A DNA stretch of 33,350 nt from Treponema sp. (GTDB lineage: Bacteria > Spirochaetota > Spirochaetia > Treponematales > Breznakiellaceae). The notes under the pieces are model-generated. The model saw only the letters and a program-made list of their open reading frames with translations. It was not told the origin of the DNA and ran no database searches. The stretch spans positions 1 to 33,350 of the forward strand of contig JAIRMT010000038.1 of the NCBI GenBank assembly GCA_031258505.1, in the 5' to 3' direction. Both the position numbers and the translations under genes were made by a program. How positions within the stretch are numbered: position 1 is the first letter of the stretch; each line of letters starts with the position of its first letter. Shown one piece after another: positions 27,278 through 33,350 of this stretch.

Positions 27278-29559
27278 TTAGGTCCCTCCTTGTTGAGCCA
27301 TAATGATAACGCTGGCAGCGCCTGTATCAGTAGCAACAGGCGCTGCCAACTCGTAGGTTCCCGATTCCCGCGCATTGGGGTATAGCCTGACGAAGTTCGC
27401 CCTCTATTGCCGCTCCATCCCAATACCATACGTAAGCGTTGTACCGCTGCCAATGGAGAACACTGCCGCCTTGGTTCACGAGTAGGAGCGCGCTGGAAAG
27501 CGGGAGCTTGTCCCATGCGGGCTGCAGGCTTACTTGAACGGAATCCTCGACTATCCATTTGGCGTATACCGTTATATTCGCGCTTACCGTGCTTGCCGCA
27601 GTAAACGCTGTGCCGCCGCCGTTCCGCTCCGTATACCGGCCGTCAAAGGTGTAGCCGCTCCTGGTCGGCGCAGGCGGGATTATGAAACTGCCCGCGTCAG
27701 CGCTTGATACCTTAAACCACGCGCAATCCGAGCCTGAGCTTATCGAGGCGTTCTTCTGATACCCTATCTCGACAAAATGATCGCCCGCCGTTGGAACAGG
27801 TATCGTTACGCTTACTGATTCCGTGCCGGATACTTTGCTGTTGGTATAATAACCGCTCTCGTATGTGGCGGAATCGTTGTCCAGCGTGCTGACAAAGGCA
27901 TAGTCCAACCCTGATTCCGAAGACACATCAAGCTGTATGCTTATGGAGGCGCTATCCGCCGCGCTAGTAAAGTCGATCCGCGACTTGGTTATGCCGCGGT
28001 GGGCAATGGCGGGAGATTTGCGTCTGCCGTCGTTTTCTAAGGCCCACGCGCTGCCTGAAACAGAGCTATACACGGATATTGCGGATTACGCCGCTGTTCA
28101 CCGTCAAGGTACGCGTGGCAGGCGTTCCCCCGTCCGCGTCAAACGTTACGGTGTATTGATCCACCCAGCCGCCCTCAGCTTCGCCTAAAGAGCTGTTCAG
28201 GGTAACGCCGGGTCCAGCCGTGCTGTTGCGCTTCTTGCCTCCAGACTCGACATAGACCGCGTGGCCGCGAGCATCGCTGCTGGCGGTGTTTTTCAGCGCG
28301 CCGCTTGCATCCGACCCGTAAATGGTTCCGCCCGACTCCTTGGTAAACGTCCCGTCCACATACGCCCCGTTGATATACGTTCTGCCCACATACACCCCGC
28401 CGCCGGAGTAGCCGGTGTTTCCGCTGATTGTCCCGCCGCTCATCGTAAACGTCCCGTTACCTATATACATCCCGCCGCCGGAGTTGCCGGTGTTTCCGCT
28501 GATTGCCCCGCCGCTCATCGTAAACGTCCCATTACCCACATACATCCCGCCGCCGGAGTAGCCGGTATTTCCGCTGATTACTCCGCCGCTCATCGTAAAC
28601 CTCCCGTAATTCACATACACCCCGCCGCCGGAGTAGAAGGAGGATGCGGATGCGGTGTTTCCGCTGATTGCTCCGCCGTTCATCGTAAACGTCCCGTTAT
28701 ATACATACACCCCGCCGCCGGAGTAGGAGGAAGATGCGGATGCGGTGTTGCCGCTGATTGCCCCGCCGTTCATCGTAAACGTCCCGCCATACACAAACAC
28801 CCCGCCGCTGGAGGAGGAGGAGGAGCCGGAGTACTGGTAGTCCCAGACGGTGTTAGTGTTGCCGGTAATCTTCGATCCGCTCTCCATGATCAGAGTTCCC
28901 CCACTGTTCACCCGTACAAGCGACTTCGTATTGTCGCTCCGGCCCAGCAAGGTAACATTGTTTCCGAGCGTCAGGGTTACGCCGCTTTCTACGGTGAAGA
29001 GCGAGCCACTCGAATTCAAGCGGACGCTCCGTTCCGCCGCGTCGCCTTTAATGGTCAGGCTAAACGCTCTTCCCCCATAAAGCGACTTAGGTCCAAAGGA
29101 CTCATCCGCGCTTACGGTAATGGTATAGTCCCCGCCTTCCGCCGCGTGTGAAGCAAGCCAGGTGAGTGATTCCTCAAGCGATAGGTTGGAAGGCAAAGGC
29201 TCCACCCACCTGGCGTACACCGTTATATTCGCGTTTACCGTCGTATCCGCAGTAAACCGTGAGCCGCCGCCATTCCGCGAAGTCCACCAGCTACCGAAGG
29301 CGTAGCCGCTCTTGGTCGGAACCGTCGGCATATTTGACCCCAGCGAAGCGCCCCTGTTCACAGTCTTGGTCTGTGCAGCAGGCGTTCCCCCGTCCGCGTC
29401 AAACGTTACGGTATACTGCTTAACCGTGCCATCCGGGTTGTTCTCAGTCGAGCCTTCCGGGTGAAACAAGTCCTTGCACCCGACAAGCATGACCGCGCAC
29501 ACGCACAGAACCATTCCAAATAACGCCGCCATGAGCGCGGCGCGTGTTGGCTTACTCAT
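27278..29559 (-). pseudogene. Frameshifted repeat-rich surface lipoprotein (InlB-type and GGVYV-type repeats)
   Basis: The first frame (29559-28066, 497 residues) begins with a signal peptide and lipobox VMLVGCKD, then an InlB-like beta-repeat (TVTFDADGGTPA...ITVYARW), a beta-helix-like region and six copies of a 25-30 residue unit around GTFTMSGGAISGNT. A second InlB-like repeat starts, then the frame breaks near 28075 and stops. The next frame (to 27327) resumes with SSVSGSAWALENDGRRKSPA and a third ITVYAKW repeat. A second break near 27400 moves the end to yet another frame (NFVRLYPNARESGTYELAAP...QQGGT, stop 27278). Together the three frames give one surface protein of about 760 residues, so two indels have inactivated it. 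Such proteins are common in treponemes and of unknown function. Confidence 0.75.
28388..28830 (-). repeat. In-gene tandem repeats of 75 and 90 bp encoding GTFTMSGG units
   Basis: The word TACA[CT]CCCGCCGCCGGAG recurs at 28391, 28466, 28541, 28616, 28706 and, in altered form, 28796: three spacings of 75 bp and two of 90 bp. All are multiples of three, so unit gain or loss keeps the frame. The 90-bp units have an added Ser/Ala/Tyr segment. The repeats lie in the first frame of the pseudogene. Confidence 0.85.
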
Positions 29560-29570
29560 TTCCCGCCTCC

Positions 29571-30866
29571 TTAAAACTTCAGCGTATACGACAGGCGTAT
29601 CGCTGCTCCGCCCTGTTCCGCAGGCGCAACCGCCACTCGCGCCCCGTCCATCAGGTCCGCCAGGGCGCGGTTACTGTTAAACACCACCGGACGGATAAAC
29701 CCGTACAACACCGCGAAGCTCGCCGCGCCAATGCCCAGCGCGCCCGGAATCCCAGCCATCTCGCGGTCATCAAGCGACAGCTCCCAGAGGACAAGCCCGG
29801 CTGCCGCGCCATAAGACAACAGCGTCAGCACCCCGCCGCCAATATCCCCTTGAATAAACGAGCCAAGCCCAAGCGCCAGGTTCAACATCCCGTAGTTAAA
29901 CACTGCGCCGTCTGAGCTCCGCGCTGGTTTAGCTGCAGGTTCCGGTGCGGCGCGTATCTCCGGCACGGCGCTTGTATCCGGGGCGCTTCCGGTGGATACG
30001 CCAGTCAGCTCCCGCGCCAGACTCTCCATCACTGTTATCCCGTCGTCCAGCGTGTCATAATTCACCGACAGCCCAAGCAGCTGCGCGCCAGACTCTAGGT
30101 TGATAAGCGACGCGTTAAACATATTCCGGGTTCCCAGCCGCTGCGCCGCCACTGACAGCACCATGCGCGGGTTATCAACCCTGCTCATGTCAACCACGTT
30201 TTCGTCCGCCACCGCGCCACTCAACTGGGTGTCATATTCCGCCTGCACCTGTTCCAGCGTTGCCGTGCGCGGATACACCGCGTATTTCCCGCTCCTTATG
30301 ATGTTTATGGAAAGTATCTGCGCCAGCGTGTCCGCCATGCGGGAGTCGATATTCCCACCGCTCAACGCGACCGGCAGCACCGCCAGTTTTTCAAATCCTG
30401 ACGAATCTATCTCTACCGCGTTGATGATATTCCGCACCATATCCGGCAGCTTGTCCTGTATCTCCTCGACTCTGGCATACGTCTGAATATCGCCGGCGAT
30501 CTGTCGCAAGTCGTCTATCTTGAGTATTGAGATAATCAAGAGATTGCGGTTGCCCAGCTGCGCGATATTGCCCGCGACCACGTATTTCGCGCCCAGCTGT
30601 TTGCCGATAGCCGCGATAGTGTCCGGGTCAGTCATACCCGCGCTGGTCTGAAACTTTTGCTCGTTACTGATAGCCCGCGAAATACTGGTGCGCGGAATCG
30701 GCACGAACACCTCGTTTAACTCTCTGCTGAAAGAGAAGAGTTCCGCTATGGTTTCTCCTTCTTCGCCCAGTCCGCCGCTAAACGGCAAGACAGCAAGCGT
30801 GTCCTTAGCCGCAAGCGCGGCGCTGAATACCACAGCGCATACTATCGCGGCGCTGATTCGTTTCAT
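29571..30866 (-). CDS. Exported protein: CsgG/LpoB-like N-terminal domain fused to a P13-like membrane C-terminus
   Basis: A 431-residue product. A signal peptide (KRISAAIVCAVVFSAALAAK) precedes a domain of the CsgG/LpoB class (about 22-300): TLAVLPFSGG, then a helix with TSISRAISNEQKFQTS, GKQLGAKYVVAGNIAQLGNR and a second half starting KLAVLPVALSGG. A short Pro/Ala linker (about 305-330) leads to a C-terminal region with several hydrophobic spans (FIQGDIGGGVLTLLSYGAAA, IGAASFAVLYGFIRPVVFNS) that resembles the Borrelia P13 family. It is likely an envelope protein; porin, lipoprotein-transport or peptidoglycan-activator roles are possible. It follows the pseudogene on the same strand by 11 bp and has weak start signals. 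Confidence 0.6.
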   Translation of the reverse strand: MKRISAAIVCAVVFSAALAAKDTLAVLPFSGGLGEEGETIAELFSFSRELNEVFVPIPRTSISRAISNEQKFQTSAGMTDPDTIAAIGKQLGAKYVVAGNIAQLGNRNLLIISILKIDDLRQIAGDIQTYARVEEIQDKLPDMVRNIINAVEIDSSGFEKLAVLPVALSGGNIDSRMADTLAQILSINIIRSGKYAVYPRTATLEQVQAEYDTQLSGAVADENVVDMSRVDNPRMVLSVAAQRLGTRNMFNASLINLESGAQLLGLSVNYDTLDDGITVMESLARELTGVSTGSAPDTSAVPEIRAAPEPAAKPARSSDGAVFNYGMLNLALGLGSFIQGDIGGGVLTLLSYGAAAGLVLWELSLDDREMAGIPGALGIGAASFAVLYGFIRPVVFNSNRALADLMDGARVAVAPAEQGGAAIRLSYTLKF

Positions 30867-30907: not shown

Positions 30908-31561
30908 TTACGGCACGACCGCGCTCACAAGCGCGCCCCAGGGACCCTTCTCCCCCTTGTTATTCTCCCAGCGCAGGCAGAAGTACACTCTTTTTCCCTG
31001 TTTATCCCCGGTAAACACGAAGACATGAGGCGTCCGGGTAGCGAATTCCGAATTGAGCAAGTCCTCAGCCTTTGCCGGCGCGTCCTCTCGCAGTTCCCAG
31101 CGAATCTCCGCGCCGTGTACGCCTTTAGGCTTTCCCCGCTGCTTGGTTCCCGCATCCCAGAACTGCAGGGATAGCTGATTAGGAACCGGCGTATCAATGT
31201 GATACTCCGGGAACGTACTGGGCGGCGGCACGGGCGTGGGCTTCCTGTCATGAATTGGCAGCTGCATCTCATTCCGTTCCTTGTCGCTGACGAACGGGCT
31301 GTATAGCAGAAACGCCTTGATGAAGGCGCGCAGCGCCTTTTCCAGCGCCTCCCTCGCGCGGTTTTTCTCCGCGATGTCCACCGGACCCCTATTGGGGTTC
31401 AGGGCTTTGGCGTAGGCTGCTTCCCAGTCCGCGTTCAACGCCAGAATTGGTTGAAAAACCGCGTCTTGAATGTTAAACGCCGTAAGATGAACTTGCACAT
31501 AAGCGAGCAAGCTCTTGACCCATGCCGCGAATGCGGCATCCTTTGTAGGCACGTAAGCCAT
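30908..31561 (-). CDS. Treponema-type hypothetical protein with Fn3-like C-terminal domain
   Basis: A 217-residue product. AAGGAGG lies six bases before ATG 31561, which I prefer to the adjacent TTG at 31564. The first 100 residues are helical (WVKSLLAYVQVHLTAFNIQ, EKNRAREALEKALRAFIKAF), then comes a Pro-rich linker (DRKPTPVPPPSTFPEYHID) and a beta-rich domain with VHGAEIRWEL, VYFCLRWENN and KGPWGALVSAVVP, like a fibronectin type III fold. No signal peptide is visible. This family is repeated in treponeme genomes (from memory) and its N-terminus is shared with the broken gene at 13140. Its role is unknown. It lies directly after the 21-bp repeat array. Confidence 0.65.
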   Translation of the reverse strand: MAYVPTKDAAFAAWVKSLLAYVQVHLTAFNIQDAVFQPILALNADWEAAYAKALNPNRGPVDIAEKNRAREALEKALRAFIKAFLLYSPFVSDKERNEMQLPIHDRKPTPVPPPSTFPEYHIDTPVPNQLSLQFWDAGTKQRGKPKGVHGAEIRWELREDAPAKAEDLLNSEFATRTPHVFVFTGDKQGKRVYFCLRWENNKGEKGPWGALVSAVVP

Positions 31562-32345
31562 CAAATACCTCCTTGGTAATAAGTTGTGCTATTATGCTCA
31601 TAGTGAGAGCCGCTCCGGTTGTAGCGGGTAAGGCTCTCACTGTAGTAGCAGCCGTTCTGGTTGTAGCGGGAACCTTTCCCGCTGTAGTGGGAGAGTCTCC
31701 CGCTGTAGTAGGAGCTGCTCTGGCTGTAGCGGGAACCTTTCCCGCTGTAGTAGGAGAGTCTCCGGTTGTAGCGGGAACCTTTCCCGCTGTAGTAGGAGAG
31801 TCTCCCGCTGTAGTAGGGACCGCTCCGGCTGTAGCTGGAACCTTTCCCGCTGTAGTAGGAGAGTCTCCGGTTGTAGCGGGAACCTTTCCCGCTGTGGCAG
31901 GAGCCGCTCCCGCTGTAGTGGGAGAGTCTCCCACTGTAGTAGGGACCGCTCCGGCTGTAGCTGGAACCTTTCCCGCTGTAGTAGGAGAGTCTCCCTCTGT
32001 AGTAGGAGCCGCTCCGGTTGTAGTAGGAGAGTCTCTGGTTGTAGCGGGAACCTTTCCCGCTGTAGTAGGAGCCGCTCCTGTTGTAGCGGGAACCTTTCCC
32101 GCTGTGGTGGGAAACTCTAGCGCTATCGTGAGGAAGTTTCTCGCTATTGTAGTAAGAAAGGCTCCAGCCATAGCGAGGAATTTGCTGGCTATGGCGCGAA
32201 AATTGTGGAACAGAGCGCCCATATACAAAACATTTCTTGAATAGACCGGTTCTTTTTCCACCAAGTAATTCATCCAGCTTTGCATCAACGCGTTTATTGA
32301 GAAAAAATATGCTATCGAGGGAAAAACAGCGATTAAATCCGCCAT
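31473..32345 (-). CDS. ORF spanning the 21-bp repeat array (heptapeptide-repeat protein)
   Basis: A 290-codon frame. The first 90 residues are unique (MADLIAVFPSIAYFFSINAL, MQSWMNYLVEKEPVYSRNVL), then about 25 heptads such as TAGKVPATTGDSPTTAG, then a unique end that overlaps the next gene by 89 bp in another frame. The plus strand is also open (31573-32244), because the unit is 21 bp and largely palindromic, so openness is weak evidence of coding. The unique N-terminus makes the minus strand more credible. A C12 tract and TATAAT abut the start codon, suggesting phase-variable expression. A non-coding array is the alternative. Confidence 0.4.
   Translation of the reverse strand: MADLIAVFPSIAYFFSINALMQSWMNYLVEKEPVYSRNVLYMGALFHNFRAIASKFLAMAGAFLTTIARNFLTIALEFPTTAGKVPATTGAAPTTAGKVPATTRDSPTTTGAAPTTEGDSPTTAGKVPATAGAVPTTVGDSPTTAGAAPATAGKVPATTGDSPTTAGKVPATAGAVPTTAGDSPTTAGKVPATTGDSPTTAGKVPATARAAPTTAGDSPTTAGKVPATTRTAATTVRALPATTGAALTMSIIAQLITKEVFDGLRAYKGCRIRGMGQELARLCASSSYGV
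31600..32187. repeat. 21-bp tandem repeat array with three palindromic core types
   Basis: From 31600 to 32124 there are 25 uninterrupted 21-bp units, then degenerate ones to about 32187 (one unit 24 bp). Most begin GTAGYRGG. The core is GGGAACCTTTCCC, GGAGAGTCTCC or GGAGCCGCTCC, each an inverted repeat, and the three types are mixed in a quasi-regular order. Arms change together, for example GGGAGA with TCTCCC beside GGAG with CTCC. Read as protein it gives heptads on both strands. Confidence 0.9.
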
Positions 32346-32361
32346 TATAGGGGGGGGGGGG
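32344..32361 (-). promoter_or_regulatory. C12 tract abutting TATAAT and the start of the repeat ORF
   Basis: On the plus strand 32350-32361 is twelve G in a row; on the minus strand this is C12 followed at once by TATAAT (32349-32344), which overlaps the ATG at 32345. The tract can act as the spacer between this -10 and a weak upstream -35, as known for poly-C/poly-G promoters in Neisseria, or as a slippery stretch joining two reading frames. In both cases a change of one base would switch output. Confidence 0.6.
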
Positions 32362-32581
32362 CGTTAGGAATATAATGATTACAGTACGAGAGGAGATTAG
32401 CTCTAAAAAAATGTTTCATCCCCCTTACTAAAGGCATAGACCCTCCCTTCAGACTGAATAGCGCACCGAAACACAGCCGCCAAAACCTGCCAAGCGCTTC
32501 ATCCCGCGAGCAATTCGCCGCCCGCCAACCTTCTTGGGGAGTCAGAGTGTACACTAGCCTATAACATTCTTCACTATTCAT
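32345..32581 (-). CDS. Short ORF reading into the poly-C tract
   Basis: A 78-codon frame that passes through the C12 tract (NAPPPL) and stops at TAA overlapping the ATG of the repeat ORF. Internal start MPLVRGMKHFFRANLLSY has GGGAGGG before it and may be the real beginning. With one extra C (13) the frame would continue into the repeat ORF and give a fusion. No family is recognised. The composition is not clearly protein-like in the first half. Confidence 0.3.
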   Translation of the reverse strand: MNSEECYRLVYTLTPQEGWRAANCSRDEALGRFWRLCFGALFSLKGGSMPLVRGMKHFFRANLLSYCNHYIPNAPPPL

Positions 32582-32638
32582 CGAAGCATCCTAGCAGAAC
32601 TAAAAAACCCCTGTCAAGTGATGAGGCGTTTTATTGTA

Positions 32639-32732
32639 GTGTCTGGCGCCATGACGAACCGGTGTCAGAACCGCAAACCAGTGGTGTCTGGCGCCGATAG
32701 CCGTATGCGGCAAACCTGTGATGTCTGACACC
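32639..32732. repeat. Cluster of GGTGTC-type palindromic words
   Basis: Four related words lie in 94 bp: AGTGTCTGGCGCC (32639-32651), GGTGTCAGAACC (32661-32672), GGTGTCTGGCGCC (32683-32695) and GATGTCTGACACC (32720-32732). The perfect form GGTGTC-T-GACACC is at 8781-8793. They lie upstream of the poly-C locus and downstream of the J-domain gene and may be protein binding sites or remnants of a dispersed element. Confidence 0.5.
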
Positions 32733-32921
32733 AGCTATGGTGAACGCCACAGTGGTTAGGCATGAGGAATTGTTACTACCTCATGTTACGCAGGAAGAAA
32801 AAACGGTAAGAATTTGTCATCGAAGGGACGCTAAGATACGCGAATATTTCATTTCTCTAAAGAAGATTCGCGTTCATTCGCGTAATTCGATGATCTTTTT
32901 CTTTCCGGCGCGTAAGGCGAG
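32733..32921. other. Short intergenic stretch without a recognised gene
   Basis: About 190 bp between the palindrome cluster and the J-domain gene. One frame is open but its content is not protein-like. AAAGAAGATTCGCGTTCATT and similar words give a weak imperfect dyad (GAATATT/GATTCGCG), without a T-run. Confidence 0.35.
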
Positions 32922-33350
32922 TTACTGCTTGCTTTGCCGCCAGTTCTCAATGCGGTCGTAGGCGGCGTTGATGCGGGCTGACTTCGCGGTTGCTTTGCGC
33001 ATATTCTCCGCGTGTCCAGCGTGACGGTCAGGGTGGTGTATCTTGAGCAGTTTCTTGTAAGCTGCCTTACATTCATCAGCGCTGGCGCCAAAAGGAAGCC
33101 CCAGTTCCGCGAAGTCCTGGCGCAGGTCTTCGGGAATGTTGGCGCTACGCTTGCTGCCATAGGCGCGAGAACTTTGGCTACGCGCCTCATAGTCAAACGA
33201 AGCTCGAGACTGCGTGCTTGTCTTGTCGTTCAGGTACTCGTTAAGTTCCTTGTACGCTGCTTCATAATCGGGATCGCTACGCCGTCGGGTCTTGCCAAAG
33301 GGCGCTTCATCTTCATCGTTAAGATAACTTTTGATTACATCCTCAATCCG
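32922..33350 (-). CDS. J-domain (DnaJ-like) protein, 5' part outside the window
   Basis: An open minus-strand frame of 142 codons reaches the window edge without a start codon. The last 70 residues are a J domain: FAELGLPFGASADECKAAYK, KLLKIHHPDRHAGH (the HPD tripeptide that stimulates DnaK ATPase) and SARINAAYDRIENW. Before it is a Ser/Arg-rich, low-complexity region with DEDEAPFGKTRRRSDPDYEA. The J domain at the C-terminus, and the lack of a Gly/Phe region or zinc finger after it, mark it as a type III co-chaperone rather than DnaJ. Its DnaK partner is probably encoded elsewhere. Confidence 0.85.
   Translation of the reverse strand, partial: RIEDVIKSYLNDEDEAPFGKTRRRSDPDYEAAYKELNEYLNDKTSTQSRASFDYEARSQSSRAYGSKRSANIPEDLRQDFAELGLPFGASADECKAAYKKLLKIHHPDRHAGHAENMRKATAKSARINAAYDRIENWRQSKQ

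Follow-up and report, generated by a model that had tools for sequence, protein, structure and literature searches.

A poly-C tract in a Treponema contig probably acts as the length-dependent element of a switch in which a short leader reading frame is, or is not, translationally coupled to the start codon of the operon behind it; from sequence comparison, this phase-variable coupling is assigned a probability of about 0.7. The stretch analysed, here called the window, is 33,350 nt long and is one whole contig of a 2.06-Mb genome that is 69% complete. The genus comparison covered this genome and those of four congeners (11.4 Mb in all). Relatives traced through the 217-aa protein encoded behind the leader are metagenome bins of Treponema and other Spirochaetaceae, with some Bacteroidales and Planctomycetaceae, and the series to which the bins belong suggests that the relatives' samples came from termite guts. 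The initial annotation had proposed a phase switch for a repeat-containing frame; the switch gains comparative support from tracts throughout the genus, orthologues in ON and OFF phases and coupled frames, but not by the mechanism proposed there.

The leader frame and the operon behind it

The C12 tract reported by the initial annotation was confirmed on the minus strand at 32350-32361 (G12 on the plus strand), with TATAATGG directly 3' of it on the minus strand, and is the proposed slippage site. The only promoter-like site within 31450-32950, one that the initial annotation had missed, is of the sigma-70 type, TTGACA-N18-TAGGAT with an extended -10 (32588-32617, minus strand), and the gap from its TAGGAT to the ATG of a 78-codon frame (32345-32581, minus strand) is 6 nt. 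Because the site stands so close to this ATG, the frame is read as leaderless and the tract as transcribed: the transcript is probably leaderless, and the C12 tract most likely lies inside a leaderless, translated leader. Shuffled sequence yields approximately 0.9 such sites, so that a single promoter-like site proves nothing alone and the case is its recurrence. The five genus genomes contain 20 matches to the combined promoter and start, CTTGACA N TAKRAT N ATGARY, and 0 to the reversed control, and a MSYEERRKAAYSLIPQ-like leader N-terminus precedes many other tracts, at times in two or three copies approximately 126-132 bp apart.

As assembled with C12, the 78-codon leader meets a stop codon 2 nt past the tract (OFF), and the 290-codon repeat frame (31473-32345, minus strand) begins there, both as the initial annotation had described. 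Its further proposal, that 13 C fuse these frames, is correct in that the fusion is open over 369 codons in all, but this is probably the wrong frame for a switch, since the ATG of the repeat frame has no ribosome-binding site (RBS), the fusion overshoots the start of the next gene by 86 nt, and many sister loci have endings of another type. That type is found in a third frame, absent from the initial annotation, which is read with C11 or C14: it extends the leader to 339 codons (31561-32581, minus strand; proposed ON), crosses an array of 21-bp repeats and stops at a TGATG that is the start (ATG at 31561) of the 217-aa gene. The repeat frame was rejected as the main switch target, and it is probably not a protein of its own. 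An upstream frame ending at or overlapping the start of an RBS-equipped gene, the geometry of a coupled pair, is thus present at C11 and C14 and absent at the assembled C12, and in silico a change of repeat units flips the frame ON or OFF, as at contingency loci.

The array (31607-32118, minus strand) is a minisatellite of partly palindromic 21-bp units with periods of 42, 63 and 105, and is open in the coupling frame; units of 21 bp preserve the reading frame. Its RNA has a strong predicted structure (z of -8.4 versus shuffles), and such structure may contribute to silencing of the gene whenever the leader goes untranslated. In three close relatives the same place is occupied by 21-bp arrays with a different sequence.

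The 217-aa gene (30908-31561, minus strand), the proposed first target of the switch, is preceded by the Shine-Dalgarno sequence AAGGAGGT (31567-31574, minus strand); its product has no Pfam match but belongs to a conserved family of presumed termite-gut bacteria. Behind it on the same strand are genes for a 431-aa protein with an LpoB/CsgG-like stretch and a signal peptide-like N-terminus (29571-30866) and a 497-aa putative surface lipoprotein with a Listeria-Bacteroides repeat (Flg_new; 28066-29559), and, next in line, a 248-aa frame with a Flg_new domain (27327-28073). Of 72 homologues of the 217-aa gene, some of which come from the same genus genomes and so are not all independent, 20 are preceded on the coding strand by C≥9 at a distance of up to 1.5 kb, and none by G≥9. 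Among the nearest relatives, one has C10 (L097) and two have no tract (L096, L098).

The proposed switch would begin with transcription from the sigma-70 promoter, giving a leaderless mRNA that starts at the ATG at 32581; ribosomes would read the leader into the poly-C tract, and slipped-strand mispairing in living cells would alter its number of C. With C12, the early stop would leave approximately 780 nt of strongly structured RNA untranslated ahead of the next gene. At C11 or C14, translation of the leader would continue across the array to the TGATG, where terminating ribosomes, together with RNA kept unfolded and protected from Rho, would feed translation of the 217-aa gene and of the surface-protein genes behind it.

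Tracts, phases and coupled frames across the genus

According to a dinucleotide model of the window, approximately 0.005 runs of C or G≥12 are expected in the window and 0.3 in the 2.06-Mb genome, in which 16 tracts of C≥12 are observed, and the four congeners have 14, 6, 20 and 26; tracts far longer than chance would produce are a mark of contingency loci. At least one C14 is present in 41 of 58 relatives. The lengths of the genus tracts peak at 14-17, and there are just ten runs of exactly C8 in the five genomes, for which the model gives hundreds of runs of at least eight, indicating that long tracts are kept or made and middle-sized ones avoided. Loss of mismatch repair was rejected as a cause of the tracts, mutS being present and intact.

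Coupling was assessed at 80 genus tracts by asking whether any of the three frames is open from the tract to a stop codon overlapping the start of a gene that has an RBS and lies 60-900 nt downstream; 47 tracts, from five species, have such a gene. Exact ATGA or TGATG coupling was found at 19 of them, against an expectation of 4.8 from 327 control starts matched in distance, or of 2.4 from intergenic starts with operon members left out, and at 0 of 24 when read from the other (G) side of the tract. When related tracts are collapsed to 21 families, 9.2 are coupled and 2.2 expected (P ~5e-4). The array in the window is crossed by two of the three frames and control genes give approximately 0.18 at these distances, so the exact overlap is not decisive for the window alone and the case rests on the genus. 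The 28 of 47 tracts that are not exactly coupled imply that other modes of action exist; they include those of a family of paralogous outer-membrane protein genes (L015, L049, L054, L076), which have C14-C16 approximately 270 nt upstream and no coupled frame, and for which another mode of action is likely. Two other genera have no clear excess of coupling (G012, 2 versus 1.0 expected; G013, 3 versus 1.9). The latter genome, a relative that is 94% complete, has the largest set of tracts so counted (135 of C≥12 in 2.5 Mb), and tract-to-start coupling was scarce in the sample taken from it.

Sister loci differ in tract length and phase, as homologous contingency loci are expected to do. Read from the promoter-proximal ATG, three loci are in the coupling phase as assembled (L012, L066, L078) and four are one C away from it (the window, L048, L041, L073); at L053 a change of one C would bring the stop to 5 nt before the gene start, and the leader of L036 is interrupted ahead of the tract. 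A lipoprotein pair of the 603-aa class is ON at L020, L077 and L083 and OFF at L062, and a solute-binding lipoprotein whose own N-terminus contains a G tract is ON at L033, L068 and L047 and OFF at L081. The stretch between tract and gene differs by multiples of three in four sets of orthologues and by non-triplet indels in two others; the dN/dS of approximately 1 in one of the four suggests that the frame, not the peptide, is kept.

Genes downstream of tracts include those for chemoreceptors, fn3 and BspA-type surface proteins, CsgG/OMP proteins and solute-binding proteins. The chances are roughly even that the genus, presumably one of termite-gut treponemes, has genome-wide contingency loci of a single design, in which repeated cassettes of a leaderless promoter and a poly-C tract in a leader frame, often open across 21-bp minisatellites, would couple that frame to the start codons of surface, chemoreceptor and glycan genes; slippage would then take place in a leader that is dispensable, and would switch whole operons while leaving their proteins untouched.

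Alternative readings and known switches

The same frame switch might instead be OFF mainly at the level of transcription, with Rho or the hairpins of the array ending transcription before the operon and reinitiation being secondary. Polarity on untranslated RNA is established (review PMC12548453), and the long untranslated RNA of the OFF phase and an array that folds far below shuffles both fit this explanation; however, exact overlap of stop and start at 19 tracts exceeds what protection of the RNA would need, and the leader past the tract is short at many loci (82-205 nt), which makes a mainly transcriptional effect rather unlikely. A neutral hot spot of mutation, or an artefact of assembly, is a considerably less probable source of the tract. 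Some runs of C84 and C96 at contig ends do look like sequencing artefacts (L039, L058), and the coupling in the window, taken alone, could be chance; but the window tract is internal (989 nt to the contig end), tracts are found repeatedly at orthologous positions and follow a strand bias and frame rules, and the strong depletion of C8 and the intact mutS also speak against neutrality.

Both mechanisms of the initial annotation fare worse still. A fused repeat surface protein, ON at C13, has in its favor the open frame of 369 codons, but the repeats can be read without a stop in two frames of the minus strand and also on the plus strand, so that openness says little; the fusion has no Pfam match and does not begin with a signal peptide, the arrays of relatives in this place are unrelated in sequence, and the frame that recurs at sister loci is the coupled one. 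Such a protein is very improbable. The idea that the tract is a spacer between a -35 and the following TATAAT draws on the TATAAT directly 3' of the tract and on the existence of such a type in Treponema pallidum (tp0126; PMC7864442). TATAAT does adjoin the tract, but TATAAT and ATG overlap in a single TATAATG, the TATAAT has no -35-like hexamer to pair with, the sole promoter-like site is upstream of the tract, and TATAAT within 12 nt of a tract is found at just two of the 80 genus tracts and so is not conserved; the spacer was rejected, as the least probable of these readings. Judged from the predicted promoter, the tract is neither between -35 and -10 nor directly upstream of the transcription start.

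In-frame homopolymers cause translational phase variation at the contingency loci of Neisseria, Campylobacter and Helicobacter, which share with the window a C or G homopolymer, proposed slippage, a frame that is ON or OFF, and surface genes. In those loci the tract is normally inside the switched gene, whereas here it is in a separate leader frame, the stop codon of which meets the start codon of a gene up to 788 nt downstream. The poly-G switches of T. pallidum are likewise homopolymers upstream of surface-protein genes in a spirochaete; at tprE/G/J/L and tp0126, a poly-G of approximately 7-11 in the promoter acts on transcription (PMC7864442), whereas the poly-C of 12-20 described here is in transcribed, probably translated sequence behind the promoter. 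Known ATGA/TGATG translational coupling (PMC6728339, PMC12548453) has the same overlaps and a downstream gene with its own RBS, but both frames are usually stable genes, and in the present case a homopolymer creates or disrupts the upstream one. Phase variation and coupling have been treated as separate causes of frame transitions (PMC3711429). In the literature searched, the coverage of which was incomplete, no report was found that joins phase variation, translational coupling and a homopolymeric tract; the novelty is therefore provisional, and leader-frame coupling is provisionally regarded as a new form of homopolymer phase variation.

Phase-variable coupling of the leader would imply a large phase-variation repertoire in insect-gut symbionts, in which the switched protein itself has no repeat tract. 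Homopolymer phase variation is known mainly from mucosal pathogens. Because the tract may be up to 0.8 kb before the gene, such loci would escape a search limited to tracts within genes or between the boxes of a promoter; the layout predicts, for each locus, ON and OFF lengths that are simple and can be tested.

Other tracts and arrays

Tandem arrays number 94 in 614 kb of sequence from the genus; for 48 of them the period is divisible by 21, and many of these adjoin poly-C tracts. The 21-bp minisatellites are locus-specific, often with palindromic units, and are found in the window and at L011, L018, L019, L022, L029, L036, L037, L057, L061, L063, L079 and L096-L098. Long runs at contig ends (C84 at L039 4980-5063, C96 at L058 14-109 and A118 at L059 5080-5197) are probably sequencing artefacts, and the C84 and C96 runs were left out of the tract set.

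The hexamer CTAACG adjoins the C tract on its 5' side in the window (32362-32367) and at L009, L014, L017, L067 and L081. CTAACG followed by C9 occurs six times in three genus genomes (four in that of the window and one in each of two congeners) and 0 times in the reversed control; it was considered, and not adopted, as a conserved entry motif for tracts.

In solute-binding lipoproteins (L033, L068, L047, L081; L026, L075), poly-G directly follows the signal peptide, and whether it is in frame varies among species. One glycan cluster (L027; G004:C9:1-14000) contains five tracts of C14-C17. Tandem nucleotidyltransferase-like genes have three of these at their 3' ends, and from each of the three a frame couples to the next gene.
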